From Candidatus Accumulibacter phosphatis (GTDB lineage Bacteria; Pseudomonadota; Gammaproteobacteria; Burkholderiales; Rhodocyclaceae), in the NCBI RefSeq assembly GCF_012939955.1, contig NZ_SPMY01000037.1:1-64000 (forward strand): a stretch of 64,000 bases of DNA, written 5' to 3'. Positions 448 to 55,205 of the stretch are shown in pieces; position 1 is the first letter of the stretch; every line of letters begins with the position of its first letter. The notes beneath the pieces were generated by a model. It searched no databases, was not told where the DNA came from, and was given only the letters and a program-made list of their open reading frames with translations. The position numbers and the translations under genes were made by a program.

Positions 448-1631
448 GGGTGAATCAAAGCCTTGCGGCCGGCCTTGCCGGCATTCACGCTCAGTAGTTG
501 GTCGTAGAGACCCTGGTAACGCCCGCTCATCGCTTGCAGGCTGAAGTGCTGCTCGACCCTGGCCCGCCCCGCCGCCCCGGCGGCACGCGCCTGCTGCGGA
601 TCGTTCGCGTAACGGGCTATCTGCTGCGCCATCGCCGCTGGATCGGAAACCGCCACCAGTTCGCCCGAGCGGCCGGCTTCGATCAACTCGGCGTTGCCAC
701 CGACATCCGTCGCGATCACCGGCAGACCACTGGCCATCGCTTCGAGGATGGTGTTGGAGATGCCTTCGGCCAGCGAGGGCAGTACGAAACAGTCCAGACC
801 ACGCAGTATTTCGGGAATATCGTCACGCTGTCCCGGCAACCACGCCAAACCGGCTACGCCGGCCTCTGCGAGCATCGCCTGCGCGCGCGCGCGCAGCGGG
901 CCGTCACCGATCATCACCAGTCGCAGACGGCTACGCAGCTCGGGAAACTCCGCCAGCACCCGGATGAAAGCCTGCGCCAATGTCGTCTGATCCTTGACCA
1001 GTTGCATACGCCCTACACTACCGACCAGCCAGCAGTCCGCATCGGTAAACGGGCAGCCGGCAATCGCCTGGCGTGAGCTGAGCGGATAGAAATGCTGCCC
1101 GTCGACGCCGTTATAAATCTGCGCAACACGGGTCGGCGACATACCGACCCGGCAAGTCAGATAATCTTCAAGATCACGCGACAGCGCTATGTAACGGCTG
1201 ACGAACGGACTATAAAAGCGGCGCAGCCACTGGTTTTTCCGGTTCGAACCATCGAGGTCGCCCACATCACGACCATGCTCACCGTGGATACGCACGGGCA
1301 CGCCAGCCGCCCAGGCCGGGATGGCGACTTCCAGTGCGGCCAGGTTGCGAGTGTGCACAATGGCCGGGCGCAAACGACGCAACAGTCGCCACAAGCGCGG
1401 ATAGATCCAGAGCGCATGACCAGGCGGCTTTCCCAACGCAATGAAGCTGACGTCGTCACGAACGATGCGGCGCTTGAAGTCGGTGATCTCGGTCAGTGAA
1501 ATGACCGCGTGACGATAAGCGGCGCGCGGCATGTGGTTGATCAGATTGACCACTCCGTTCTCGAGACCACCCACGTCAAAGCGGAACACCACATGGACCA
1601 CCAGCGGACGCCGGTCCGCAGCGACCGTCAT
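444..1631 (-). CDS. XrtA-system-associated glycosyltransferase, family 4 type
   Basis: This 395-residue GT-B glycosyltransferase probably adds a sugar to the exopolysaccharide or its lipid-linked precursor at the inner face of the membrane. The N-terminus (VVHVVFRFDVGGLENGVVNL) is the acceptor-domain start typical of the sugar transferases found in PEP-CTERM/XrtA loci. The C-terminal half has the family-4 donor-site block 'LPSLAEGISNTILEAMASGLP' (E-x7-E type) and 'ATDVGGNAELI'. Its ATG overlaps the exosortase stop by four bases (ATGA), so the two are translationally coupled. The stop codon (444-446) lies inside the terminal repeat of the neighbouring IS, so the last residues may be IS-derived. 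Confidence 0.88.
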   Translation of the reverse strand: MTVAADRRPLVVHVVFRFDVGGLENGVVNLINHMPRAAYRHAVISLTEITDFKRRIVRDDVSFIALGKPPGHALWIYPRLWRLLRRLRPAIVHTRNLAALEVAIPAWAAGVPVRIHGEHGRDVGDLDGSNRKNQWLRRFYSPFVSRYIALSRDLEDYLTCRVGMSPTRVAQIYNGVDGQHFYPLSSRQAIAGCPFTDADCWLVGSVGRMQLVKDQTTLAQAFIRVLAEFPELRSRLRLVMIGDGPLRARAQAMLAEAGVAGLAWLPGQRDDIPEILRGLDCFVLPSLAEGISNTILEAMASGLPVIATDVGGNAELIEAGRSGELVAVSDPAAMAQQIARYANDPQQARAAGAAGRARVEQHFSLQAMSGRYQGLYDQLLSVNAGKAGRKALIHP

Positions 1632-39056: not shown

Positions 39057-40286
<1,230 letters not shown>

Positions 40287-40352
40287 GAGATTTCCCTGCT
40301 GATCTTGCTGATTGTTCTGGTTCTGCTGAGGATGCTGATCGTGTCGCTTCAG

Positions 40353-41291
40353 CTATTTGGATTTCGGCGCCTCGACCCGGCCCACGAGGAGGTACTCGAG
40401 GAGCGCCTTCTGGGTATGCATGCGATTCTCGGCCTCGTCCCAGACGACGCTCTGCGCACCGTCAATGACCGCGGCCTCGACTTCCTCGCCGCGATGCACC
40501 GGCAGGCAGTGCATGAACAGCGATTCGGGCCCGGCGGCGCGCATCATTTCGAGGTCAACCTGCCAGTCGGCGAAGTCCCGCCGGCGCTCGTCGTTCTCGG
40601 CTTCGAAACCCATCGAGGTCCACACGTCGGTGGTCACCAGGTCGGCGCCGCGTGCGGCTTCCATCGGATCGGCGTAGCTCTCGAAGTGGTCGGTGCCATA
40701 CAGGCCGGCGCGTGCCGGCTCGACTTCGTAGCCCGGCGGCGTCGACACATGGACGTTGAAATCGAGCACTTCAGCGGCCTGCAACCAGGTATTGCAGACG
40801 TTGTTCGAATCGCCGATCCAGGCCACCGTCTTGCCCTGAATCGGACCGCGATGCTCGATGAAAGTGAAAATATCGGCGACGATCTGGCAGGGGTGATACT
40901 CGTTGGTCAGGCCATTGATCACCGGCACCCGCGAATTGGCGGCAAAGCGCTCGATCATCGCCTGCTCGAAAGTGCGGATCATGACCACGTCGCTCATCCG
41001 CGAAATCACCCGCGCCGCGTCCTCGACCGATTCGCCACGCTGCAACTGCGAATCGCGGCTGTTCAGGTAGATCGCCGAACCGCCGAGTTGCTGCATGCCG
41101 GCTTCGAAGGACAGGCGGGTGCGCGTGCTGGCCTTCTCGAAAATCATCACCAGCGTACGGTCGCTGAGCGGCCAGTATTTCTGGTAGGACTTGAACTGCC
41201 CCTTGATCCAGCGCGAGCGCTCGAAAAGGTGGTCGAACTCTGCACGCGTGAAGTCCTTGAACTGCAGGAAATGTTTGACGCTATCCATCAC
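40353..41291 (-). CDS. argF: Ornithine carbamoyltransferase
   Basis: This 312-residue enzyme makes citrulline from ornithine and carbamoyl phosphate. 'IFEKASTRTRLSFEAGMQQL' contains the STRTR carbamoyl-phosphate motif, 'NGLTNEYHPCQIVADIFTF' the HPxQ motif, and 'LFMHCLPVHRGEEV' the ornithine-binding HCLP motif. Length is normal; it lies between argD and argG. Confidence 0.97.
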   Translation of the reverse strand: MMDSVKHFLQFKDFTRAEFDHLFERSRWIKGQFKSYQKYWPLSDRTLVMIFEKASTRTRLSFEAGMQQLGGSAIYLNSRDSQLQRGESVEDAARVISRMSDVVMIRTFEQAMIERFAANSRVPVINGLTNEYHPCQIVADIFTFIEHRGPIQGKTVAWIGDSNNVCNTWLQAAEVLDFNVHVSTPPGYEVEPARAGLYGTDHFESYADPMEAARGADLVTTDVWTSMGFEAENDERRRDFADWQVDLEMMRAAGPESLFMHCLPVHRGEEVEAAVIDGAQSVVWDEAENRMHTQKALLEYLLVGRVEAPKSK

Positions 41292-41300
41292 CGATCTCTA

Positions 41301-42473
41301 TCAGGAGGCGAGAAAATCGCCAATCACTCCGCCCAGGCGGCTCACCAGTTCACGCGCCTCGTCGGCACTGAAGTTCAGCGGCGGCAGCAGGCGCACGACC
41401 TTGTCGGCAGTAACATTGATCAGCAGCCCGACATCGAGCGCGCGGGTCACTAGTTCGCCGCAGGGGCGATCAAGTTCGATGCCGATCATCAGGCCCTGGC
41501 CACGAATCTCGACCACGCCTTCGCAATCCGCCAGGGCCTGCGCCAGACCCTCACGGATCAGCCGACCGATGGCCACCGCACTGTCGATCAAGCCGTTCTC
41601 TTCGATGACCGCAATGGTCGTCAGCGCAGCGGTCGACGCCAGCTGGTTGCCACCGAAAGTCGACCCATGCTTGCCTGGTTTGAACAGGCCGACCGCCTTG
41701 CCGGCTGTCAGGCAGGCGCCGATCGGCACGCCGCCGCCCAGCCCCTTGGCTAGCGTCACCACGTCGGGGTGGATGGCCGCGTGCTGAAAGCCGAACCAGG
41801 TACCAGTGCGGCCGGTTCCGCACTGCACTTCGTCGCAGATCAGCAGCCAGTCGTTCTCGTCACAGAGCGCGCGCAGGCCGCGCTGGAAATCGACGTCTGC
41901 GATGTTGATGCCGCCCTCGCCCTGGACGATTTCAAGCATCACGGCGACGACGTTATGATTCGACTTGGCTACCGCCCGAATGGCTTCGAGATCGTTGTAG
42001 GGAACGCGCACGAAACCGGAGACCAGCGGTTCGAAGCCGGCCTGCGCCTTGCGGTTGCCAGTCGCCGAAAGCGTCGCCATGGTGCGGCCGTGGAAGGCGT
42101 TCTCCATGACCACGATCGCCGGCCGCTCGATATCCCGCTTGTGGCCGTAATAGCGCGCCAGCTTGATCGCTGCTTCGTTGGCTTCGCAACCCGAGTTGCA
42201 GAAGAAGACCTCGTCCATCTCCGCCAGCGCCGCCAGCTTGTCGGCCAACTGCGCCTGCTGCGGAATACTGTAGAGGTTCGACGAATGCAGCATGCGCCCG
42301 GCCTGTGCAGCAATCGCCGCGACCAGCGCCGGGTGGTTGTGCCCAAGCGTCGACACGGCAATTCCCGACAGCGCGTCGAGATAGACCTTGCCGTCGGTAT
42401 CGGTCACCCAGCTGCCATCGCCATGGCTGAAGGCGATGGGCAAGCGAGCGTAGGTATTCATCAGGTGCGACAT
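41301..42473 (-). CDS. argD: Acetylornithine aminotransferase
   Basis: This 390-residue PLP-dependent class III aminotransferase converts N-acetylglutamate semialdehyde to N-acetylornithine. 'FFCNSGCEANEAAIKLARYY', 'LLICDEVQCGTGRTGTWFGF' and 'VVTLAKGLGGGVPIGACLTA' with the PLP lysine are all present. It is the first of three clustered arginine genes; the argF ATG follows nine bases after its stop. Confidence 0.95.
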   Translation of the reverse strand: MSHLMNTYARLPIAFSHGDGSWVTDTDGKVYLDALSGIAVSTLGHNHPALVAAIAAQAGRMLHSSNLYSIPQQAQLADKLAALAEMDEVFFCNSGCEANEAAIKLARYYGHKRDIERPAIVVMENAFHGRTMATLSATGNRKAQAGFEPLVSGFVRVPYNDLEAIRAVAKSNHNVVAVMLEIVQGEGGINIADVDFQRGLRALCDENDWLLICDEVQCGTGRTGTWFGFQHAAIHPDVVTLAKGLGGGVPIGACLTAGKAVGLFKPGKHGSTFGGNQLASTAALTTIAVIEENGLIDSAVAIGRLIREGLAQALADCEGVVEIRGQGLMIGIELDRPCGELVTRALDVGLLINVTADKVVRLLPPLNFSADEARELVSRLGGVIGDFLAS

Positions 42474-42817
42474 GGATCACCCATTGCAAAGCACTTGAAA
42501 CTGAAACGGCGGCTCGCGCCGCCGAATTACGAGAAAAACGAGAAAAACGAAATGAACGAGATCCGCACAGGAACCAGCATCGGTCCGTTCCGGCATGCTT
42601 TAACAGGGGTTCACACACCGTCTTACAAGGGCATGGATTTTACGGGAAAAAGACTCTGCTGTATAGAAAAGGCGGGGGTTTTGAGGAGTGTGCACCGGGC
42701 TGGTGAGGCGGAGAGGTCGATAGGCGTGCATGCGGCACAGGGCGGCACGATTCAGGTGACTGCTGGCGCGGCGATGGTTTCGCGCGGCTCCCTCCGCCCT
42801 TCCGAAACGCTTCAGCG
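42474..42817. other. Intergenic region between argD and the FGE-sulfatase island
   Basis: This 344-bp gap should hold the argD promoter and the 3' end of the island transcript. A degenerate 9-bp tandem repeat (GAGAAAAAC, GAGAAAAAC, GAAATGAAC) lies at 42531-42557. I see no terminator with a clear T-run and no recognisable gene. It is the left border of the accessory island. Confidence 0.55.
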
Positions 42818-43651
42818 TCAGGATCGCATGAGGAAGCGAAAACCCGTGAACTGGTTCGCGCCGCCGGGCGCAACGACGAGGCGGTCTGCGGCGCGCACGT
42901 CCCTGGCGTTGCTTCCCCACGAGCCGCCGCGCTGCGCGCGCAGGGTTGCGCTCGGGTCAGCCGCGCCGATGCGCAGCGATTCCTGCTCGTCGAAACCGTC
43001 GGCGCACCACTCCCAGACGTTGCCGTGCATTTCGTAAAGGCCCCACGCGTTGGCGGGCAGGCTTTTCACTGCCACCGGCGCGGCGGGGTCGGAGCCGCTG
43101 CGAAAGTTCACCTGTGCCAGAGTGATCTCGTCGCCGAAGCTGTAGGCGGTGCGCGAGCTGGCGCGGCAGGCGTACTCCCACTCCGCTTCGCTGGGCAATT
43201 CGGGCGGCACGCCCTGGCTGAAACTCTGCAGCCGGGCGAGGAAACCGCTGCCGGGTGCCGTGATGTCGTTCCAGCTCACCTGTTCGACGGGATGTTGCGG
43301 GCTGCCCGGATGGGTCGTGTTGCTGGCGCTGAACTGGCTTGGGTTGCTGCCCGTCACCGCCTGCCACAGCGCCTGCGTGCAGGCGGTGTCGGCGAGCCAG
43401 AAACCGGCGGCGATGCGCGTCTCGATCTGCCGGTCCGGCTGCCGCTCGTCGCCCATCAGGAAACGCCCCGCTTCGATCCAGCGCAGGCGCTGCACGACGT
43501 CAGCGACCGCCAGGTCGGCCCAGAGTCCAAAGCGGTCGTCGCCCCAGGCGCTCGCCCAGCGCGGCGGGAAGGGAGCGGGGCCGCGCTGGCGCCATTCTTC
43601 AGGGGTGATGGCGTTCATCGCTTGCTTCGCTTGGGATTGGGAATCGGCCAT
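42818..43651 (-). CDS. FGE-sulfatase (SUMF1-like) domain protein
   Basis: This 277-residue protein consists mainly of a formylglycine-generating-enzyme-like fold: 'RWIEAGRFLMGDE', 'FWLADTACTQALWQAVTGSN', 'PVEQVSWNDI', 'LPSEAEWEYACRASSRTAYS', 'NAWGLYEMHGNVWEWCADGF' and a C-terminal 'QRGGSWGSNARDVRAADR...GFRFLMR'. The copper-binding cysteine pair of true FGE is absent at the expected place (NARDVRAADR), so it is unlikely to make formylglycine; such domains often bind peptides or ligands. It ends the minus-strand island transcript, 70 bases after a larger FGE-domain gene. Confidence 0.9.
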   Translation of the reverse strand: MADSQSQAKQAMNAITPEEWRQRGPAPFPPRWASAWGDDRFGLWADLAVADVVQRLRWIEAGRFLMGDERQPDRQIETRIAAGFWLADTACTQALWQAVTGSNPSQFSASNTTHPGSPQHPVEQVSWNDITAPGSGFLARLQSFSQGVPPELPSEAEWEYACRASSRTAYSFGDEITLAQVNFRSGSDPAAPVAVKSLPANAWGLYEMHGNVWEWCADGFDEQESLRIGAADPSATLRAQRGGSWGSNARDVRAADRLVVAPGGANQFTGFRFLMRS

Positions 43652-43721
43652 GGTCTTGGTGTGCTACCCGGCTGGCGCACCAAAGGGGTAGCACGGGTCA
43701 GCACGTCGGCAACGCGCCGCC

Positions 43722-46496
43722 TTACTTCCATGCAGCCGCCCCCGGGGCATGGGCCACACGTCCAGCGACCCCAGCGGCGCCGTCCCGAGGGGCTGGCCCC
43801 TTCTTGGTCCCGGCCGAACTGCTTGACCGTAGGACGAACCGAAACCCGACGTGGTCGTCACAGTAGCTAGACTCTAGCCTGAGCCAGGCGGCGCAACGTG
43901 CGGCCCTGCCGAAGTTATACCACGAGCCGCCGCGCGAAACGCGGGAGCCTCTCTCATGCGTCCGAGGAAAAGTCTCGGCTCGTGCGGTATAGTCGGACAG
44001 CCCGGCGGCACACCACTCCCACACGTTGCCATGCATCTCGTACAGACCCCAAGCGTTGGAAGGCAGACTCCTGACCGGAACGGTCGCGGCTCGATACACA
44101 ACGCTGCCGCGCTTGTCGTACGCTTCTCGACCGTCGTAATTCACTTCGTCGGTACTGATGCTGTCACCGAAAGCGAATGGCGTGCAAGTACCAGCGCGAC
44201 ACGCGTACTCCCACTCAGCTTCGCTCGGCAGACTGACAACAGCGCCGGATAGTACTTCTTCGAGCCGCTGCACGAAGCGTTGCACGTCGTCCCAGCTCAC
44301 CTGCTCGACCGGATGCTGCGCTCCACCGCCTTTTCCGGCGCGGAAAGAGCTCGGGTTATTGCCCATCACCGCCTGCCACAGCGCCTGCGTACAGGTGCTG
44401 TCGGCGAGCCAGAACGCCTGCGTCAGGGTCACCTCGTGCTGCGGGCGTTCTTTCTCCGAGCGCATTCCTTCTGACAGCGGCGAGCCCATCAGGAAATGGC
44501 CGGCTTCGATATAGCGCATTCGGAAGAGGATCGCCGGCGGGCTGTCCGGCGCAGCGCGCGGTTCGACGGGCAGCAGCACGTCGGCGTAGAGCCCGAAGCC
44601 GTCGCGGCCGATTTCGTCCGCCCACTCGGGGCGCTCGATACGGCTGACGAGGTAGCGGTGACGGCCAGCGACCAACGTCAGCGCGCCTGCCGGGCCAGCG
44701 AAGGCCTCGGCCGTCGCAATCCGCTGCACGCCAGCGGCCGGGTCGAGCAGGCGCGTCGACTTGCCGCCTGCATCGCTGACCTGCAGCCGCTTGATCTGCA
44801 GCGGCGAGCCGAGCCGGGAATGGCCGGGTCCGGCCGGGCGCTCGGCACCCCAAAGCATCAGCCCCTCGTCGCTGACGCCGAGTTGGCAGTCGACTTCCGT
44901 TAGGTCCGTGCGGGCGGCGACCGCCTGCGCCAGGTGTTCAGCGCCCAGCGCCGGCGGCGACTGGCGCTCCCCGGTCGCCAGCCACAGCGGCGACAGCCAC
45001 TGCGAGTTGGCCGCAACCCAGCGCTGATCGGCGCCGTTGCGGGCGAGCAGGTCGAGCGTGTATTGGCGCGTTTGCTGGTCCACTGAGCCAGTTCTGGTCG
45101 CGCGCTCGCTGAATGCGGCGAACCAGCGCTGCGCCTCGTCGATGCGGGGAGCACAGCCGTCTTGCGCCTCGGGGCGGGCGTGCGCTTGCCAGATGAGGAC
45201 TTCGGCGGCTTCGGTCGCCCTGCCCCGCCAGGCGTGGATGTGCAGCGCCACTTCGAGCGCCGCAAGTTGTTCGGCGGCAGCCAGTTCGGCGAAAGCCTGG
45301 CGATAGGTCTCGACATATTCCGCCGAGACGGCACGCGAGACACTACTGTCCTGGACCACCGGCTGGCGCGCCCAGACCAGTGCTTCAAGCGCCGGTTCGG
45401 CGGCGTCGTCGGCGCTGACGCCGCGCAAGGCGCGCAGCAGCGCCGGTTCGGCCCGAACGCAGAAAGCCATGCGTGCCAGCAATTGCTCGCGCAGCGCTGC
45501 CAGCCGATTCCGTTCGAGTCGCCGCTGCTCGTCAGTGGCGATACGGCCACGCTGGCGACGCAGACCGCCGGCCGGCTGCAGGCAAAAGACGTCGGCCCAG
45601 CGCGTCAACTCGACCTCGATCTGTCGCGGCGCCAGCGGCGCCCAGACGACGGGCTGCGCGCCGTGCTGCGACAGGTGGCGGGCAAATTCGGCCCACGCGT
45701 GCATCGCCGGCTGCGCGCCTAGCGCGCCGACATCAGAGAGCAACAGCACCCGCGTTCCCGGCGCCGGCATGGCAATGGCCTCGGGCCGAGGCGCAGAAAC
45801 CCGGCCGGCATGAGCGGGCTTCTCGGGCCAGCGCTGACGGACCTGCTGCGGACTGCCGTCGACCAGCCACAAGGTAAAGCCTCCGGCACCGCGTTGGCGC
45901 AGCAGGTCGGTGACGATGGCCTGGAAGTCTTCCTGGTAAGGCTGCAGGTGTGCGGCGCGATCCCAGACGACCAGCAGTTCGCCGCCCCACAGCGACTGGC
46001 GAAGGCGCGGCAAGCGTCGCAGCGGTCGGGCGTCGGACAGTTCGCGCAGCAGGCGCGGCATGTCGAGCCCGGCGTGGCGCGTTTCGACCGCCGAGCGCTT
46101 GAGCGCCGGCCACAGCCGCGCGTGACGAACCAGCGGAACGAAGGGCGCCGCTTCGCCGTCGCTGCGCCGGGGCGCGCATTGCGCGGGCGTCAAGGGCTGC
46201 GATCTGTCTTGTCGGGCGCGTTCAGCCGGCAGTTCGAGACGTTGGCAGGCGGTGATGGCGAAAAGTGGCGCGCGCAGAGGCTCTCTTGCTTCGACTTCGG
46301 CAGATGTTGCAGGCGCAGGACCGACCACGACACGAACTTGGCCTACGGGCGAAATGATGCCCGAGACGCTTGCAACCACCGGTTGCCGCTCGAAGGCAAG
46401 CAGGCCAGCGTAGCGACGCTGTCGCTCCTCGTCGTCGCCGGCAAGCGACAGCGCGCGCAACAGATCGGCCCGCGCCAACAAAGGCGAGCGGTTCAT
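43722..46496 (-). CDS. Large protein: vWA-like N-terminal region plus C-terminal FGE-sulfatase domain
   Basis: This ~924-residue protein has a C-terminal FGE-sulfatase domain (about residues 655-890: 'RYIEAGHFLMGSPLSEGM', 'FWLADSTCTQALWQAVMGNN', 'LPSEAEWEYACRAGTCTPFA', 'NAWGLYEMHGNVWEWCAAG', 'SRGGSWYNFGRAARCAAW'). The middle is Ala/Arg-rich and helical. The N-terminal third has 'LLVVWDRAAHLQPYQEDFQA' and later 'TRVLLLSDVGALG', arranged like the two metal-site strands of a vWA domain but without intact DxSxS, so it may be a degenerate vWA. The ATG at 46496 overlaps the MoxR stop (ATGA), coupling it to the ATPase. It is probably the MoxR partner; the vWA reading is inference. Confidence 0.8.
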   Translation of the reverse strand: MNRSPLLARADLLRALSLAGDDEERQRRYAGLLAFERQPVVASVSGIISPVGQVRVVVGPAPATSAEVEAREPLRAPLFAITACQRLELPAERARQDRSQPLTPAQCAPRRSDGEAAPFVPLVRHARLWPALKRSAVETRHAGLDMPRLLRELSDARPLRRLPRLRQSLWGGELLVVWDRAAHLQPYQEDFQAIVTDLLRQRGAGGFTLWLVDGSPQQVRQRWPEKPAHAGRVSAPRPEAIAMPAPGTRVLLLSDVGALGAQPAMHAWAEFARHLSQHGAQPVVWAPLAPRQIEVELTRWADVFCLQPAGGLRRQRGRIATDEQRRLERNRLAALREQLLARMAFCVRAEPALLRALRGVSADDAAEPALEALVWARQPVVQDSSVSRAVSAEYVETYRQAFAELAAAEQLAALEVALHIHAWRGRATEAAEVLIWQAHARPEAQDGCAPRIDEAQRWFAAFSERATRTGSVDQQTRQYTLDLLARNGADQRWVAANSQWLSPLWLATGERQSPPALGAEHLAQAVAARTDLTEVDCQLGVSDEGLMLWGAERPAGPGHSRLGSPLQIKRLQVSDAGGKSTRLLDPAAGVQRIATAEAFAGPAGALTLVAGRHRYLVSRIERPEWADEIGRDGFGLYADVLLPVEPRAAPDSPPAILFRMRYIEAGHFLMGSPLSEGMRSEKERPQHEVTLTQAFWLADSTCTQALWQAVMGNNPSSFRAGKGGGAQHPVEQVSWDDVQRFVQRLEEVLSGAVVSLPSEAEWEYACRAGTCTPFAFGDSISTDEVNYDGREAYDKRGSVVYRAATVPVRSLPSNAWGLYEMHGNVWEWCAAGLSDYTARAETFPRTHERGSRVSRGGSWYNFGRAARCAAWLRLESSYCDDHVGFRFVLRSSSSAGTKKGPAPRDGAAGVAGRVAHAPGAAAWK

Positions 46497-47554
46497 TGCG
46501 GCGGCGGCTCCCCTGCTCCGAGGGCTGCTCGCTGCTGCGACAACTGCGGACTGCCGTCGATGATTCCGTTCTTGAGGAAAGCGTACGGCGCCAGCCTCGC
46601 CAGCCACTCTTTCTGCTCGTCGCGCTTGCCGGGCGCCAACCGGCCGAGAGCGGTGAGCAGGTCAATGTATTCGGCCAGCCCCGGTGGCGAAACACCCGCC
46701 ATGCGTGCGTTATGCCGATCAGCCTCGAGTTGCTCGGCGGCCATCCTGAGGATCGTTTCGTGCAAACGCCTAGCTGATGGTGCCGCGGTGCCGAAGTGCG
46801 CGAGCCCACGTTTGACGAGAAAGTCGGCATACGAATCGTCGGGCCCTAAGGTGAGTACCACGCAGCGGCGCAGGAAGGCCGCCGGCAATTCGCGCTCCTC
46901 GTTGGTGGTGATCACCACCAGCGGCAGGCCATCGCCGGGCTTGATCGGCTGCCGCGTCACCGGGTTGGGAAACTCGCGGCTGCCGAGAACTTCGAGCAGG
47001 CTGTTCGGCAGGTCGCTGTCGGCCTTGTCGATTTCGTCGATCAGGATGACGTGCCCGGCGGGTTTGGCGCCGGCGCTCGCTGGTGCGCCGGCTGAGTGGC
47101 TGCCCGGCGACGCTTCGCTGCCATCGCCGACGTACTGCTTCACGGCGGCGGACTGCGGTCCATACCCAAGCGCGTCATCCCAGGCAAAAGCCAGCCAGAA
47201 CGGTCCGGGCAGCCAGTAGCAGTGATCAGGCTTGACGCCACCGCCGGCAACGCCGGCGGCCTGCGCATCTGCCAGTCGCTGCACGGCGTCGAAGCGGTAA
47301 AAGAGATCCTGCGCCTCGAAGCGAGGGCTGATCGTGACGCATTCCAGGCGCCAGTCCAGGGCCCTGGCCACCGCCAGCGCCAGCTGGGTCTTGCCGGTTC
47401 CCGGTTCGCCGCGCACCAGCAGCGGCCTTCCTGACGCCAGCGCCAGATGCAGGGCGTCGATTTCGTTCTGCGACCATTGATGAACGATGTCGTCGAAGCG
47501 CTCGACGGCGTCCGTTTTCAGGTTCTTCAGCAATTCTCTGACGTCAGTTTCCAT
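46493..47554 (-). CDS. MoxR-family AAA+ ATPase
   Basis: This 353-residue ATPase has Walker A 'RGEPGTGKTQLALAVA' (about residues 48-63), Walker B 'HVILIDEIDKADSDLPNSLL' (Asp/Glu about 173/174), sensor 1 'LVVITTNEERELPAAFLRRC' and an arginine finger pair. A 40-residue Gly/Ala/Ser-rich insertion (about 130-168) precedes Walker B. MoxR proteins act as chaperone-like remodelers together with vWA partners; the coupled downstream gene fits that. It follows the TIR-domain gene by 35 bases. Confidence 0.92.
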   Translation of the reverse strand: METDVRELLKNLKTDAVERFDDIVHQWSQNEIDALHLALASGRPLLVRGEPGTGKTQLALAVARALDWRLECVTISPRFEAQDLFYRFDAVQRLADAQAAGVAGGGVKPDHCYWLPGPFWLAFAWDDALGYGPQSAAVKQYVGDGSEASPGSHSAGAPASAGAKPAGHVILIDEIDKADSDLPNSLLEVLGSREFPNPVTRQPIKPGDGLPLVVITTNEERELPAAFLRRCVVLTLGPDDSYADFLVKRGLAHFGTAAPSARRLHETILRMAAEQLEADRHNARMAGVSPPGLAEYIDLLTALGRLAPGKRDEQKEWLARLAPYAFLKNGIIDGSPQLSQQRAALGAGEPPPQ

Positions 47555-47589
47555 TGGTTCGGCCTGTAATGTCGTGGCGTGGTTGATCT

Positions 47590-48951
47590 CTATGCCCGGG
47601 GCGGCATCTCTTCGAGGCGCGCGATGATGAGCGCGGCAGCCTTGGCGGGAGGATGCTTACGGCAGTCGGCAGCGAGGTCGATGGAAAACAGACCATCCAC
47701 CGGTTCGTCGTCAAAACGGAAAGGCATGATGCGATCATCCTGACGCTTCTTGATCAGCTCACGCACGACGCGCCATTCAACGCCACCACACCATTCCTTT
47801 GCCTGGTAATCCCTGCCGAGAAAGACGACCACCAGATCGGCCTGCTCGTGATAGATCTTCTGCAAGAGGAGGTCTGCGTTCGGTCTTGCCAGCTGTGCCT
47901 CGAAGTTGGGGTAGTAGAAGACGGCGTCGCGTCCCAATTCCTCGACGAGGTCCGAGGCGACCTCATCAACATACTCGCGTTGTTCACCCGCGAGCGAAAG
48001 CGCCACCCGAAAGCGCATGTCCTGCAAACCGGACCGGGCCTGCGCCTTTGGTCCGGACAACCGCTCGAAAAGCGGCAACAGATAATCCATCAGGTCGGCC
48101 TGTAGATTTGCTCGCTTCCACGCCTGCCTGCCGGGTTCGTCCAGCCGATCCCCGATGGCCTCACCGTAGCGGAAAGTGGGCACGCCAAAGTACGTCGCGA
48201 ACTCCTTGCGCAGAGCCTCTTCATCGAGCGGGTGAGCGCTGGCCGCGTTCAGGCCGAACATCAGCCGCGAATCGTTCTTGCGGGCGTAGCGCGTCAACTG
48301 GCTGAGCAGCGCGTCGTCGGAAACGACACCACGGGCCTTGACGTCCTGCAGAAGCGTCCGTCGATCGACCTTCCCCAGATCATCCAGCGGCGTCTTGACG
48401 ATCGCCTGTAGCTCTGCCTTGACACATTCCCGTGCCCCCTGGAAATCCAGTTCCAGCGGCGGCACGTCGTGCAGGACATTGATCGCTTCGGCAGTTCGCG
48501 TCTGCTCGTCGAAACGGATGCGGACGCCGTTTTCGCACCACGCGGCCGCAATCACCGCGGCGGCCAGCTGCTCGCTGGCGGCGATCAGCATCTCGTCGGC
48601 TGCTCCGGCTCCAGCTTCGCCTCCTGGGCCGATGCCTTCGGCTGCGAACTTTTCTTGCACCCGCCGTTCGCAGGCGACCAGGCAAATGCCGATGGCCACC
48701 TGCTGCAGGGCTTCGGGCGTCCCGGCGCGACCGCCAGCGAGTTTGCCGAGCTTTGGCGCAAGGCCCAGGATGTTGCCCAGGACATCAAAGGCGCCCTGCC
48801 CCAGACAGTCTTCCAGGAGCGCCGCAGCGTCAGCCGGGACCCCGGTCTCGCACTCCACAGCCCAGGCTTTGGCGAAAGCCGACCACAGTTCTTCCTGCTC
48901 GTGAAGCTCCCCGAGCCGGTCGCGAAGGCTCTGCTGCAGGCGAGTGGTCAT
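47590..48951 (-). CDS. TIR-domain protein with novel N-terminal region
   Basis: This 453-residue protein carries a C-terminal TIR domain (about 313-425): 'RFRVALSLAGEQREYVDEVA', 'AVFYYPNFEAQL', 'ADLVVVFLGRDYQAKEWCGG' and 'VEWRVVRELIKKR', with Glu392 in the W-x5-E position expected for the NAD-cleaving glutamate. Residues ~200-300 ('VDRRTLLQDVKARGVVSDDA...') may be an effector-associated helical module. The first ~150 residues are Ala-rich helices, a possible adaptor. Bacterial TIR domains degrade NAD or make signalling nucleotides in antiphage defence. Here it is followed by MoxR in the same transcript. Confidence 0.88.
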   Translation of the reverse strand: MTTRLQQSLRDRLGELHEQEELWSAFAKAWAVECETGVPADAAALLEDCLGQGAFDVLGNILGLAPKLGKLAGGRAGTPEALQQVAIGICLVACERRVQEKFAAEGIGPGGEAGAGAADEMLIAASEQLAAAVIAAAWCENGVRIRFDEQTRTAEAINVLHDVPPLELDFQGARECVKAELQAIVKTPLDDLGKVDRRTLLQDVKARGVVSDDALLSQLTRYARKNDSRLMFGLNAASAHPLDEEALRKEFATYFGVPTFRYGEAIGDRLDEPGRQAWKRANLQADLMDYLLPLFERLSGPKAQARSGLQDMRFRVALSLAGEQREYVDEVASDLVEELGRDAVFYYPNFEAQLARPNADLLLQKIYHEQADLVVVFLGRDYQAKEWCGGVEWRVVRELIKKRQDDRIMPFRFDDEPVDGLFSIDLAADCRKHPPAKAAALIIARLEEMPPRA

Positions 48952-48962
48952 CGTTCGCCGCT

Positions 48963-48986
48963 CACGTAATCACGTAATCACGCCAT
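48963..48986. repeat. Short tandem repeat, ~3 x 8 bp (CACGTAAT)
   Basis: CACGTAAT, CACGTAAT and CACGCCAT follow one another in the 42-bp gap between the zinc-ribbon gene and the TIR gene. The array covers most of the spacer, including the place where the TIR ribosome-binding site should be. Confidence 0.85.
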
Positions 48987-48993
48987 CACCCGC

Positions 48994-49776
48994 TCAGCGC
49001 CGCAGCAGGTTCCAGACGGTTTCGATACCGCCCACGACCAGATCGGAAATGTCTGCCTCGAGCAAACCCTTGCGCGTTTCCCGAGTCGCCAGCGACTTCG
49101 CGCGCTCGTTGGCGAGCAGCGCATCGGCGACGGCGTGCGGGTTCACGTGCTCCTGCCGGCTGGCTTTTGCGCCAAAGTTGTCGAGCGCGTCCTGCACCGC
49201 GTCGGGATCAAGAATGACGATCGGCGAACGGCAATGCGTGCACACGTGATCGCGACGGATATCGACCGGTGCGCCACAACCCGAGCAGCGGATGGTCTGC
49301 ACCTGCCGCGCCAGCTCGGCGACCTCGGCGCCGTTGAGTTGGCGAACGAAGCCTTTTTCGATCATGAACGCCGCGAAGGCGCTGTAGCGACCGTGGCGCT
49401 GCGGGCAGCGGCTGTAGGCGAAGCGGCCGTTGCGCGTGCTGTCGAGCCGGTGCATCAGGGGTTCGCGGCAGCGTGGGCATTGCAGCACGTCGCGCCAGGG
49501 TTGGCGCAGGTCGGCGTGGTGTTCGTGCAGCAGGCGGAAGAGTTCAAGAACGCCGGCCGGAGCGAGTTGCGCGCTCTCGAACTCGTCGAACCAGATACCC
49601 TGGCAAGGAAAGCAGATGTCGAGCGACACGACGCCGTTGAGCTGGCGCTTGAACTGCTGCACCGCCATCGGCGCGTGGCAGCTGGGACATGGGCCGCCGC
49701 TCGCCGAACGAGAGGGCTGAGCGGAATGATCGGAATGCGCGGCTTGCGCTGACTGCGGATCGCTGGTGTTGTTCAT
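48994..49776 (-). CDS. Multi-zinc-ribbon protein (TFIIB-type Zn finger)
   Basis: This 260-residue soluble protein has three Cys-rich units: 'CPSCHAPMAV...CFPCQGIWFDE' (zf-TFIIB type with the W-F-D/E signature), 'CPRCREPLMHRLDSTR...CP' and 'IRCSGCGAPVDIRRDHVCTHC'. The C-terminal ~70 residues ('HAVADALLANERAKSLATRE') are helical. It is the first gene of the minus-strand island transcript. Start at 49776 (MNNTSDPQSAQ) is directly preceded by an 8-bp tandem array; the open frame to 50010 runs through it and is less likely. Function unknown; it could sense or bind a partner for the TIR/MoxR module. Confidence 0.82.
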   Translation of the reverse strand: MNNTSDPQSAQAAHSDHSAQPSRSASGGPCPSCHAPMAVQQFKRQLNGVVSLDICFPCQGIWFDEFESAQLAPAGVLELFRLLHEHHADLRQPWRDVLQCPRCREPLMHRLDSTRNGRFAYSRCPQRHGRYSAFAAFMIEKGFVRQLNGAEVAELARQVQTIRCSGCGAPVDIRRDHVCTHCRSPIVILDPDAVQDALDNFGAKASRQEHVNPHAVADALLANERAKSLATRETRKGLLEADISDLVVGGIETVWNLLRR

Positions 49777-50306
49777 GGCATCGAATGCTTGAATGCTTGA
49801 ATGCTTGCATGCTTGGATCACTGGAGGTGGGGCGTTTCTGCCACTCCCCACCTGCTGCTCCGCGCCCTGGCTGCTCACCGCAGCCAGAAGCGCACGTCGG
49901 CGAGTATAGCCGCCAGTCCTTCCACAAGCGAGCGCGGACCGGGGCGACTCGCCGTCGTCCACTTTTCTTGCCGCCTGTGCCGTGGGCACTGGTGCCCGTT
50001 CAGTAGGCATCCTGACGCGCGCGGCAGCGAATGCTCTCTAAGAGCACTCACATTTCCCAACGGAGTGATTCGGCCGATAGAATCAATCAATCGATCCAGG
50101 ATTGCATTCTGTCGCTTGTGACCTAGAGTACTTATATCGTCCCCCATGCTCACTTAGCGGTCTTCCGCTACAGGGCCACTCGGCTGTCTTGTCCGGGCTG
50201 GCACCCCCCAGCGGGCACCAGGGCCGAAAGAGGCACTTTCCGCCGCAGCCACGGGCTGCACGAAAAGCGCCAGGAATCCGAGACAGGCAAAGTGGAAGGA
50301 AAAGCC
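49777..50306. other. Divergent intergenic region of the island
   Basis: This 530-bp gap separates the minus-strand zinc-ribbon/TIR/MoxR/FGE transcript from the plus-strand subtilase. It should contain both promoters. Next to the zinc-ribbon start lies a 4 x 8-bp tandem repeat (49783-49814). A somewhat A+T-richer stretch is at about 50070-50150. I could not define promoter boxes or operators with confidence and see no gene. Confidence 0.55.
49783..49814. repeat. Short tandem repeat, 4 x 8 bp (GAATGCTT)
   Basis: Three perfect GAATGCTT units and one GCATGCTT unit lie immediately upstream of the first gene of the TIR/MoxR transcript. Changes in copy number would alter its leader, and also the frame of any translation starting upstream. 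Confidence 0.92.
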
Positions 50307-51524
50307 ATGAGCGAGAAGCGGAAATCGGTAATCATCACCTTCAAGGCAAAGGAAAAGCGTTCGGACAAGAGCGCGGACAAGGTGGACATCGTGCGCAGCG
50401 TATTGCCCAAAGGCATGCAGACGTACTTTTTTGACGCGACGAGCCTGGCGTCAGGAGCATCAGTGCCGGCGATGGACCAGGATCTGATCGCTTACGACGT
50501 CAATCAATACGAATCGCCGATCGTCACCGCGCGGCTGACCAAGGCGGAGATCGAGGAACTGTCGAAAAATGGCAACGTCGCCGAGGTAGAGGAAGACCAG
50601 GTGTGCTACGCGATCGGCAGTCAGTTCGGCCACCTGCAATTCGAGAACCAGCCGAGCATCCTGGCCGAAACCGTGCCGGCCGGCGTTGTGCAGATCAAGG
50701 CACCGCAAGGCTGGCCGTCGTCGCAGGGCGAAGGAATACGGGTGGCGGTGGTCGACACCGGTATCGACTACAACCACTCGGACCTCAAAGCCAACTACCG
50801 CGGCGGCGTCAGCTTCGTTGCCGGCGCGAGCACACCAATGGATGATCACGGCCACGGCACGCACTGCGCGGGCACGGTTGCCGCCGCAATCAACGGTGCC
50901 GGCGTCGTTGGCGTAGCGCCCAGCGCCTACCTGTACGCGGTCAAGGTTCTGGACAGCAGCGGTAGCGGCTCGTATAGCCAGATCATTTCGGGCATTGACT
51001 GGTGCATCCAGAACGGCATGCGCGTGGTCAGCATGAGCCTCGGCGGGTCAGGCGGGTCGACGGCCCTGCAGAACATCTGCAATACCGCTTGGAGCAAGGG
51101 TCTGCTGGTCGTCGCGGCGGCCGGAAACACCGGTGCCAGCGTCGGCTACCCGGCCAAGTACAAGAACGTGATCGCCGTATCGGCGATTGATTCGGCCAAC
51201 GCCCTAGCAGGCTTTTCCAGCCGTGGGCCGGAAGTCGACATCTGCGCGCCGGGAGTTAACGTCCTGTCGACGACCAGGGGTGGTGCTTATGGGACGATGA
51301 GCGGTACCAGCATGGCCTGCCCGCACGTTGCCGGTGCAGCTGCCGCGGTGTGGGGCGCCCACCGCTTCGCCAGCAACGAGCAGATCTGGAACCTTCTGGC
51401 GTACTACGTCGATAATCTCGGCGCGCCGGGCTGGGACGCCAGCTTCGGTTATGGCCGGGTCAACGTCGACCGGGCAGCGTTGGCCTTGACGCCAGCACCG
51501 GTGATCGCCAAGAAAGGCATCTAG
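50307..51524 (+). CDS. Subtilisin-like (S8) serine protease without signal peptide
   Basis: This 405-residue protease has a full S8 catalytic set: Asp150 ('VAVVDTGIDYNHSDL'), His183 ('DDHGHGTHCAGTVAAA'), Asn274 ('AAAGNTGASVGYPA') and Ser335 ('GTMSGTSMACPHVAGAAAAV'). Residues ~1-100 look like an I9-type propeptide ('PIVTARLTKAEIEELSKNGN' then 'VAEVEEDQ'). There is no signal peptide or membrane segment, so it may act inside the cell. The ATG at 50307 has GGAAGGAAAAGCC upstream; a GTG five codons earlier is possible. It is divergent from the TIR/MoxR transcript and convergent with a stand-alone I9-like gene. Confidence 0.9.
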   Translation: MSEKRKSVIITFKAKEKRSDKSADKVDIVRSVLPKGMQTYFFDATSLASGASVPAMDQDLIAYDVNQYESPIVTARLTKAEIEELSKNGNVAEVEEDQVCYAIGSQFGHLQFENQPSILAETVPAGVVQIKAPQGWPSSQGEGIRVAVVDTGIDYNHSDLKANYRGGVSFVAGASTPMDDHGHGTHCAGTVAAAINGAGVVGVAPSAYLYAVKVLDSSGSGSYSQIISGIDWCIQNGMRVVSMSLGGSGGSTALQNICNTAWSKGLLVVAAAGNTGASVGYPAKYKNVIAVSAIDSANALAGFSSRGPEVDICAPGVNVLSTTRGGAYGTMSGTSMACPHVAGAAAAVWGAHRFASNEQIWNLLAYYVDNLGAPGWDASFGYGRVNVDRAALALTPAPVIAKKGI

Positions 51525-51717
51525 GATCGCTGCGCGCTGCGGGCCTTGGTGGTCAGGTCAGAGAGCACGGACCCGCTTCGCCAGCGAGGTTGTTCGCGCT
51601 GCGCGCCGCCTGTTGGATACTTCGGCAGAAAGGTTGTTGCTGCCGGCGGCAGCGCCGCTTGCCGATCAACGACCGTGAGCTGTTGGCGCCAGCCTGACGG
51701 AAAGCAATGAGCCCGCC

Positions 51718-51978
51718 TCAGCGTGGCCCGAGTGCTGCCGCCGGCTGATCAAGTTCTATCGACGTGACGTTGCCGGCAGCAGCCAGGGTCGCAATCTGGG
51801 CGGCAGTGACTGCTGCCGCGGCGGCGGCAATGCTCTGATAGACGGCTGTCGGCTCGACTCCCAAGTGGCGCAGCAATTCGACGCTGGCACTATCCTTGAA
51901 CGAGACGATAACGGAGAACTTGCGCGAGTCGTCACGGTTTGCCCGCAATTCGTCGGCCAGCGACGTTTCGATCTTCAT
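51718..51978 (-). CDS. Stand-alone I9-like (subtilisin prodomain/inhibitor) protein
   Basis: This 86-residue protein (MKIETSLADELRANRDDSRK...) has the prodomain pattern: 'FSVIVSFKDSASVELLRHLG' then 'AVTAAQIATLAAAGNVTSIE'-LDQ, which lines up well with the propeptide of the neighbouring subtilase ('VTARLTKAEIEELSKNGNVA'-EVEEDQ). A GGAGG four bases before the ATG decides the start; a longer upstream frame to 52230 is unlikely. No signal peptide is present. Its position next to a cytoplasmic-type subtilase suggests a dedicated inhibitor, chaperone or immunity-type partner; this is inference. Confidence 0.72.
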   Translation of the reverse strand: MKIETSLADELRANRDDSRKFSVIVSFKDSASVELLRHLGVEPTAVYQSIAAAAAAVTAAQIATLAAAGNVTSIELDQPAAALGPR

Positions 51979-52347
51979 ATGGCCTCCGGTGCGCCCTTTG
52001 CCGTTGGCCGCCTCGCCACCGCATGTGGGCGTTGGCGTGAAGACCAGCAAGTGCGCGAAAAGTACAATGATCGCCTTGGCACGCCCGCCTCGACAGCTGG
52101 CGTATTGCTTGTCGCTAGACATCATGGCCGACCCTCCGCTGCACTTGTGCGGCAGCCACCCGAGCCGCCGTCCGAGCGAGCAGCGCGCCGCCGTCCGCGG
52201 GTGCATCAACAGGGCTGCGAGCGTGTACAACGCACCTGTTCAGCATAGCTCATCCGGGGCCATCGCGCACGATGCGCCGCAAGCCAAGTCGCCATGCTCT
52301 CGACGCAACCCGAAGCGGACGTCAGCAGAGCCCGCACGACCAGCCCG
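51979..52347. other. Intergenic region at the right border of the island
   Basis: This 369-bp region separates the I9-like gene from the DUF3567 gene and marks the return to core genes. It should hold the I9-like gene's promoter. Open frames on both strands have no recognisable similarity, and I see no tRNA, integrase or direct repeats that would identify an attachment site. Confidence 0.5.
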
Positions 52348-52581
52348 TCAGTGCAGCACGATGGCGCGGGCGGCGCCCGCGCAGTAGGTGTCAAGCACGG
52401 CGTCGATCGATTCTTCGTCGCGCTCATTGTCGGGAATCTCGTCGAGCGTGCGGCGCAGGGCCCTGGCCACCGAGCCCTGGACGAAAAGGCTGCGGCTGGC
52501 CGCCTTGTCGACCAGCTCGAAGCCCTCCTGCACAGGATAAGCGACGATCGAGTAGTGCGCACTGTCATAGACGAGGTTCAT
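52348..52581 (-). CDS. DUF3567-domain protein
   Basis: This 77-residue protein begins MNLVYDSAHYSIVAYPVQEG, continues 'FELVDKAASRSLFVQGSVAR' and ends 'VLDTYCAGAARAIVLH', matching the short DUF3567 family of betaproteobacteria. It is transcribed after clpB on the same strand with a 41-base gap. Function unknown. Confidence 0.85.
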   Translation of the reverse strand: MNLVYDSAHYSIVAYPVQEGFELVDKAASRSLFVQGSVARALRRTLDEIPDNERDEESIDAVLDTYCAGAARAIVLH

Positions 52582-52622
52582 ATCGGTCGCTCCGTTTCGG
52601 CCCCGCGGGCCATGCCTGTATC

Positions 52623-55205
<2,583 letters not shown>

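Follow-up and report, generated by a model that had tools for sequence, protein, structure and literature searches.

What is encoded between argD and clpB in Candidatus Accumulibacter phosphatis, and which of the genes there act together? Accumulibacter matters for phosphorus removal from wastewater. The region lies in a stretch of 64,000 nucleotides, here called the window (assembly GCF_012939955.1, contig NZ_SPMY01000037.1, positions 1 to 64,000), for which a first-pass annotation had proposed a conflict island of seven genes: a zinc-ribbon gene, a TIR gene, a MoxR ATPase gene, two genes of the FGE-sulfatase family, a subtilase gene, and a stand-alone gene resembling the I9 protease inhibitor. 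We conclude, with a probability of roughly 0.7, that the locus is a mobile conflict cassette in which a TIR effector is switched by MoxR, and that its sensors, the two FGE-type (CLec) proteins, are frozen former targets of a diversity-generating retroelement (DGR). We infer a function in defense. Conflict systems of this kind had been predicted as such (PMC7159879, PMC10907252; like PMC3521204 below, cited from the passages available to us), and that part of the proposal agrees with them. In what follows, G000 is the window's own genome, other G numbers are relatives, and L numbers are loci.

Four genes form one unit at a variable chromosomal site

All seven open frames proposed are present, and six of them have Pfam matches (Table 1; open frames of the window were matched to Pfam, with E values per domain). 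The TIR, MoxR, large FGE, and short FGE genes are tightly packed on the minus strand, with 35 bp between TIR and MoxR, the expected ATGA overlap between MoxR and the large FGE gene, and 70 bp between the two FGE genes; the zinc-ribbon gene is 42 bp from the TIR gene. Of 60 relatives searched, 7 encode a full-length relative of the TIR protein, and all 7 belong to the same genus. Counting the window, MoxR adjoins the TIR gene in all eight loci, and the large FGE gene is next in seven (the G012 copy being cut by a contig end), with the G009 contig ending inside MoxR. Orthologues of the short CLec gene are present in G022, G004, G013, G010, and G026. Within these contig limits, the TIR, MoxR, and two FGE genes are one co-occurring unit. 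In a wider collection, MoxR accompanied the N-terminal part of the large sensor in 14 of the best 80 loci. The TIR core, sought in 300 genomes of the order, among which no other listed genome is of the same genus, turned up in the own genome only.

Six of the eight TIR loci are at the zinc-ribbon site, and the G010 and G026 sets are elsewhere. The zinc-ribbon gene itself is carried by 22 of 28 Candidatus Accumulibacter genomes (the own genome included) and by 9 of 33 others searched, and most carriers have no cassette. Among 16 cassette-free neighborhoods of the same genus, argD follows the zinc-ribbon gene after 188 to 475 bp in eight and after 1.7 kb in G011; of the remaining seven, five have no argD in range and two end at a contig edge. 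The cassette is an insertion between the zinc-ribbon gene and argD, for which empty sites are available. DNA identity between the window and one such genome, G001, breaks directly after the zinc-ribbon stop codon and resumes at ~42715, ~100 bp past the short FGE gene, which therefore places the cassette limits as given in Table 1. The cassette has a G+C content of 66.9%, versus 61.7% for the rest of the window.

Relatives carry a DGR between the two CLec genes

The interval between the CLec genes of G026 holds a template repeat, an accessory gene, and a reverse transcriptase of 338 residues that has a YMDD motif, and the same three elements are found there in related clades too. The sequence pattern of DGR rewriting is plain in G026: the 105-nucleotide cores of its two variable regions differ from their own template at 17/25 and 14/25 adenines and at 0/80 and 0/80 other sites, and when the alignments are extended, adenines account for 17 of 19 and 17 of 21 mismatches. 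G019, a sister-clade genome with a SEFIR effector, behaves similarly (16/22 and 15/22 adenine sites; 0/83 and 1/83 others). In total, the template comparison took in 13 of the variable regions found.

Other members of the window's clade retain the retroelement to different extents. G013 has a reverse transcriptase of full length; a REP-type transposase separates it from the template, whose fit is poorer (adenines account for 17 of 36 mismatches). G010 keeps the template together with residues 133 to 231 of the reverse transcriptase (99 residues). G004 has neither, its gap holding only a REP-type transposase, and its variable regions differ from the G026 template at 19/25 and 14/25 adenines and at 3/80 and 6/80 other sites. 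The pattern of a former DGR target is clear in G004 and G010. REP-type (Y1) transposase-like genes, a family assigned by eye from a motif and not by profile, are found in or next to decayed DGR gaps at L129 (10073-10650), L131 (1860-2402), L219 (2498-2995), and L209 (14070-14414), and such transposases may take part in retroelement loss.

Across the genus, the reverse transcriptase is full-length in 11 of 24 assessable loci, nearly full in one, fragmentary in five, and absent from seven (Table 1); full-length is defined as at least 322 of 338 residues without stops, so that an intact enzyme is one judged by length and open frame only. L134 was dropped from the count (289 of 779 gap bases masked), as were L143, L146, L214, L215, L216, and L218, where contigs or fetched stretches end; L141, L219, and L220 were counted though MoxR was not seen. 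One of the loci without the enzyme, L208 (G022:C41:12000-31000), is a second such locus, in G022, and has an N-terminal-TIR effector; a template-like stretch at G022:C41:24166-24279 is 82% identical to the G026 template peptide.

The retroelement has probably been lost from the window's lineage

The window has no match to a reverse transcriptase or accessory gene at E<=0.01, there is nothing recognizable in its 70-bp CLec gap, and no template-like repeat was found in positions 40000 to 53000. Searching the own genome with the G026 reverse transcriptase gave no match at E<=0.001. Three RVT_1 matches are present in the own genome (two of them over the cut-off), all lacking the SQ motif that is typical of DGR reverse transcriptases and that both G022 DGR enzymes have. 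These three, fragments or genes, are at L223 (G000:C21), L224 (G000:C82), and L225 (G000:C7), the last of which resembles the enzyme of a group II intron. The template peptide has eight matches in the own genome, each within an open frame of 280 to 873 residues, as expected of genes, and no short-frame template was found there. A DGR is thus likely to be absent from the own genome, but since the assembly (149 contigs) is 97% complete with 5% contamination, the absence is likely rather than proven. Collapse of repeats during assembly was considered as a cause of the short gap and rejected: both CLec genes are whole, their variable regions differ, and the same state is found in G022, another assembly.

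A weak trace of adenine-biased change is visible. The short sensor of the window differs from the G026 template at 16/25 adenine sites and 17/80 others (Fisher p 1.2e-4), and the large sensor, over 35 codons, at 17/25 and 29/80 (Fisher p 0.005); the tests assume independent sites, an assumption that sites within codons violate. In a phylogeny of 29 MoxR proteins, the window's clade resolves as ((G000,G022),G012), (G004,G013), and (G026,G010), supports ranging from 95/86 to 100/99 apart from 98/81 for G004 with G013, and G026 and G013 fall on both sides of its deepest split. Full-length enzymes in G013 and G026 therefore make presence ancestral, with three losses (G000/G022, G004, and G010), if there was no regain. 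We infer that the window's lineage lost the retroelement and did not lack it from the start. Loss as such is not new, because Doré et al. (PMC10907252) describe degenerate DGR loci in Thiohalocapsa in which the machinery is missing or broken, some of them diversified in trans.

These precedents bear on an alternative in which diversification of the locus continues in trans, driven by a DGR missed in the assembly or one that comes and goes in the population. The incompleteness of the assembly would allow for this, and PMC10907252 also reports loci that are intact in part of a population. We nonetheless consider it unlikely, given that the own genome has no DGR reverse transcriptase and no short-frame template that we could find, and that the variable region of the short sensor is nearly identical in G000 and G022. 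Another alternative is that the ancestral locus had no retroelement and that other lineages later acquired a DGR between their CLec genes, with which the clean, short gaps of the window and G022 (~131 bp in the latter, with nothing recognizable in it) would agree. This too seems unlikely: the DGR components occupy the same position in related clades, G010 retains part of the enzyme and the template, the variable regions of G004 fit the template although G004 has neither, and the short sensor of the window keeps its adenine bias.

Several observations weigh against a frozen, formerly rewritten locus. A retroelement elsewhere in the own genome could be missing from the assembly, and the adenine trace in the window appears weak, above all in the large sensor. 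G022 holds other DGR reverse transcriptases elsewhere, and rewriting from a distance could occur in its lineage. Moreover, the variable region of the G022 large sensor (L128, 12644) differs from a sister-clade template at 18/22 adenines and 10/83 other sites and from the own-clade template at 22/25 and 19/80, which may point to inter-clade rewriting or exchange.

The sensors are likely recognition surfaces

An AlphaFold2 model of the large sensor, built from 18 sequences, has a predicted local distance difference test score (pLDDT) of 73.9 and a predicted template modeling score of 0.56. Its best match in the PDB is a DGR-variable protein, 2y3c (E 9.6e-14), followed by PvdO and FGE. Structures of vWA domains are at ranks 46 to 49 (E 0.011 to 0.014, probability 0.99 to 1.00), and at rank 45 is a chain of a NorQ-NorD complex (E 0.010), which we take to be the vWA protein NorD. 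Taken together, the vWA matches span E 0.010 to 0.014 and probabilities of 0.97 to 1.00. The vWA-like part that had been proposed for this protein thus has some structural likeness behind it but no Pfam match in any of the 18 homologues at E<=0.01, and the structural E values are only about 0.01; both points count against the reading, and the model suggests such a region weakly.

Because the two FGE proteins are of the kind that DGRs diversify, they likely serve as recognition surfaces rather than in sulfatase chemistry. An enzyme pair with a chaperone, formylglycine-generating or of another FGE-family oxidase type, is suggested by the Pfam family and by PvdO and FGE among the best structural matches, but is very unlikely to be what the locus encodes: the cassette has no sulfatase, the C-terminal part of exactly this fold is rewritten by a DGR in relatives, the best structural match is itself DGR-variable, and the C-terminal motif of the window protein reads GFRF (by eye) where active FGEs have GFRC.

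Different effectors are found upstream of MoxR

The TIR protein consists of a helical-looking core (residues ~1 to 305) and a C-terminal TIR domain (residues 316 to 429). Within the latter, Glu392 is invariant in all eight aligned TIR proteins, in the motif WC(x)2-3E, and is presumably the catalytic glutamate of TIR NADases; the protein would then be an NAD+-consuming effector. A single-sequence model of the protein reached a pLDDT of 36, and this counts against the overall reading.

The gene directly upstream of MoxR does not always encode a TIR protein. Ten proteins at this position comprise three with TIR_2, two with SEFIR, three with DUF4062, one with Trypsin_2, and one with no match. Outside the effector domains, the DUF4062 proteins are 79% identical to a SEFIR protein over 281 columns, and different effectors are therefore carried on one core. 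Residues 1 to 305 of the window TIR protein are related to this DUF4062/SEFIR core (hhalign probability 93 to 94%, score 57 to 59; best of 50 column shuffles 23.9), and the L137 protein matches the window core weakly (41%, score 36.6; shuffles at most 21.5). The trypsin protein and the N-terminal-TIR proteins were also tried as bearers of this core and rejected: because their C-terminal parts are unrelated (hhalign probability <1%), the core is not general. In our literature searches, we found no paper joining DUF4062 with MoxR. A trypsin-like effector before MoxR is found at L144 (G017:C62:95000-114900), where there is an intact DGR and, nearby, a second MoxR/CLec and TIR set in the opposite orientation.

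The cassette is constrained and modules may have been exchanged

The cassette genes are still constrained, with ratios of nonsynonymous to synonymous substitution (dN/dS) of 0.19 to 0.33 between G000 and G022. For the same pair, dS is 0.64 for TIR, 0.26 for MoxR, 0.25 for the short sensor, and 0.06 to 0.23 for the flanks; within the large sensor it is 0.47, 0.18, and 0.59 for residues 1 to 80, 81 to 620, and 621 to 848, respectively. In the pairwise gene comparison, rows for genes absent from a locus (chance alignments, mostly <50% identity) were ignored. Between G010 and G026, MoxR is 90% identical and the upstream flank 93%, versus 44% for the TIR core and 39% for the TIR domain. G009 has another TIR domain (22 to 24% identical) on the same core (60 to 62%) at the same chromosomal site. 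A comparison of G004 with G013 speaks against simple effector swapping, as the core differs more (63%) than the TIR domain (86%).

On this basis we tentatively put forward, as a possibility short of an even chance, that the receptor locus has changed its mode of diversity, the retroelement having been lost repeatedly within the genus while whole modules (the effector or its core, and the CLec domain) were exchanged around a MoxR/vWA-like switch that was retained. On a tree of 57 CLec domains, those of G000 and G022 stay in their own clade on long branches, and the idea that either came from a donor clade was rejected.

The zinc-ribbon, subtilase, and small genes are neighbors

Comparison of neighborhoods across genomes, which the first-pass annotation itself had named as able to refute its proposal, confirms that TIR, MoxR, and both FGE genes occur together but separates from them the other three genes of that annotation. 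The zinc-ribbon gene, taken there as the first gene of the unit, is widespread in the genus and mostly found without a cassette; it is part of the chromosomal backbone. The subtilase and the small gene lie beyond it, inserted between the zinc-ribbon gene and DUF3567 in the own genome and G022 only (50307-51978). The G022 subtilase is 99% identical, and the next best is 44% identical and elsewhere. G012 and G009 carry a TIR gene at the zinc-ribbon site, and neither has a subtilase or an I9-like gene beside it. A larger island of all seven genes acting together, protease inhibitor included, is thus extremely unlikely, even though all seven are found together in the window and in G022.

Nor did the idea of a dedicated inhibitor fare well. 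The subtilase has its own Inhibitor_I9 match (residues 8 to 100; Pfam, E 1.3e-4), and the 86-residue gene is Pfam-negative at E<=1, resembling the subtilase propeptide over 30 residues only (13 of 30 identical, E 2e-4 for that single comparison). Beside the zinc-ribbon gene of another relative, L181 (G018:C5:119013-119279) resembles the TIR protein at residues 3 to 90 (33% identity, E 2e-4) and has one stop, perhaps the scar of a lost cassette.

Table 1. Features of the window and state of the DGR reverse transcriptase at related loci
Feature	Position	Strand	Basis or remarks
Inserted cassette, ~6.3 kb	~42716..48993		Comparison with the empty site of G001
TIR effector gene (presumed), 453 residues	47590..48951	-	TIR_2 E 2.2e-9
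MoxR-type AAA+ ATPase, 353 residues, presumed switch	46493..47554	-	AAA_5 E 3.4e-14; bpMoxR E 2e-6
Large sensor (FGE/CLec; presumed), 924 residues	43722..46496	-	FGE-sulfatase E 5.4e-40
Domains of the large sensor	N-terminal (R/G)ADLL region; vWA-like alpha/beta region (putative), ~130-345; helical and beta region; C-terminal CLec/FGE with former variable region, ~660-890	-	AlphaFold2 model, Pfam
Former variable region (predicted), large sensor, 39 codons from RGGSW	43818..43934	-	Comparison with the G026 template
70-bp gap between the two CLec genes	43652..43721	-	Relatives have there an HRDC-like gene, reverse transcriptase, and template repeat
Short CLec/FGE-only protein, 277 residues, second presumed sensor	42818..43651	-	FGE-sulfatase E 1.2e-34
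Former variable region (predicted), short CLec protein	42833..42931	-	Comparison with the G026 template
Zinc-ribbon gene	48994..49776	-	Zn_ribbon_TFIIB E 2.1e-7
Subtilase	50307..51524	+	Peptidase_S8 E 3.9e-64
Small gene, 86 residues (I9-like)	51718..51978		Open frame; Pfam-negative
Nearly full reverse transcriptase	L209, residues 65-333
Fragmentary reverse transcriptase	L132, L138, L142, L219, L220
Reverse transcriptase absent	Window, L128, L129, L140, L141, L208, L211

Relation to known systems

The first-pass annotation did not recognize the gene set as described, but it is close to clade 5A of the MoxR-CLec-DGR systems described by Doré et al. in 2024 (PMC10907252). In that clade, as in the window, MoxR is directly upstream of a long CLec target, and there is a second, short CLec-only target, with TIR or protease effectors nearby. 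The differences are that neither the window locus nor the own genome yielded a DGR reverse transcriptase or template, and that the N-terminal extension, called domainless in the paper, may according to our model contain a vWA-like part. An effector core common to TIR, SEFIR, and DUF4062 proteins was not met in the passages of the paper available to us. With no reverse transcriptase in the window, placement within clade 5A by that enzyme does not apply to it. Accumulibacter is named in the same paper as a genus with several related DGRs, and their presence in this genus had already been noted in 2012 (PMC3521204).

The VMAP ternary system described in 2020 (PMC7159879) is likewise similar in its MoxR ATPase (AAA_5 and bpMoxR in the window), in a variable third component carrying TIR or a peptidase, in FGS (FGE) domains as frequent partners, and in its occurrence in multicellular or aggregate-forming organisms. 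It differs in that the window has no vWA recognizable by sequence and has its CLec on the presumed vWA-like protein. The TIR protein has no VMAP-C match (TIR_2 being the only Pfam match at E<=1, with the presence of a VMAP-C model in the Pfam copy unchecked).

Two further likenesses are narrower. TvpA, the DGR-variable protein of Treponema denticola (2y3c), shares the FGE-like CLec fold and a variable region at the same C-terminal end, but has a different architecture and no MoxR; its DGR, we presume, is still present in T. denticola. Thoeris and other TIR antiphage systems share a TIR domain with the conserved glutamate as presumed effector, but the window has no Thoeris, SLOG, or STAND partner, and the TIR protein has no PADLOC match. 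Also to be set against a defense role is that PADLOC has no model for the gene set, giving only weak matches to AAA+ proteins (IetA and others) and to the subtilase (IetS). No paper was found in searches for MoxR with a TIR domain, FGE-sulfatase, and conflict systems. As far as the literature searches go, three things are new here: a lineage that lacks the retroelement yet is under constraint, an effector core that is shared, and the apparent swapping of effectors.

A possible mechanism and its implications

A plausible scheme is that the CLec surface would bind a ligand, perhaps from an invader, and that the signal would pass through the vWA-like region of the large sensor, which would couple that protein to MoxR, and through MoxR itself at the cost of ATP. 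Release or activation of the TIR protein would follow. If the protein acts as other TIR enzymes with this glutamate do, it would consume NAD+ or make a derivative of it, so that the cell is stopped or killed. Doré et al. (PMC10907252) similarly propose that the CLec protein senses and MoxR relays to an effector, and Kaur et al. (PMC7159879) propose another order. In relatives, the DGR between the CLec genes rewrites the CLec surface at adenines, as the sequence pattern of G026 shows; in the window's lineage, the recognition surfaces would now change only through ordinary mutation and recombination.

The sensors that DGRs diversify have been compared to adaptive receptors in bacteria. Here a single genus offers loci of one kind whose retroelements are intact, decaying, or lost, a chromosomal site that occurs empty, full, or free of the retroelement, and interchangeable effectors carried by one core. 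Together these would allow direct tests of the purpose of diversification, of whether sensors still function once frozen, and of how effectors are coupled to the MoxR switch.
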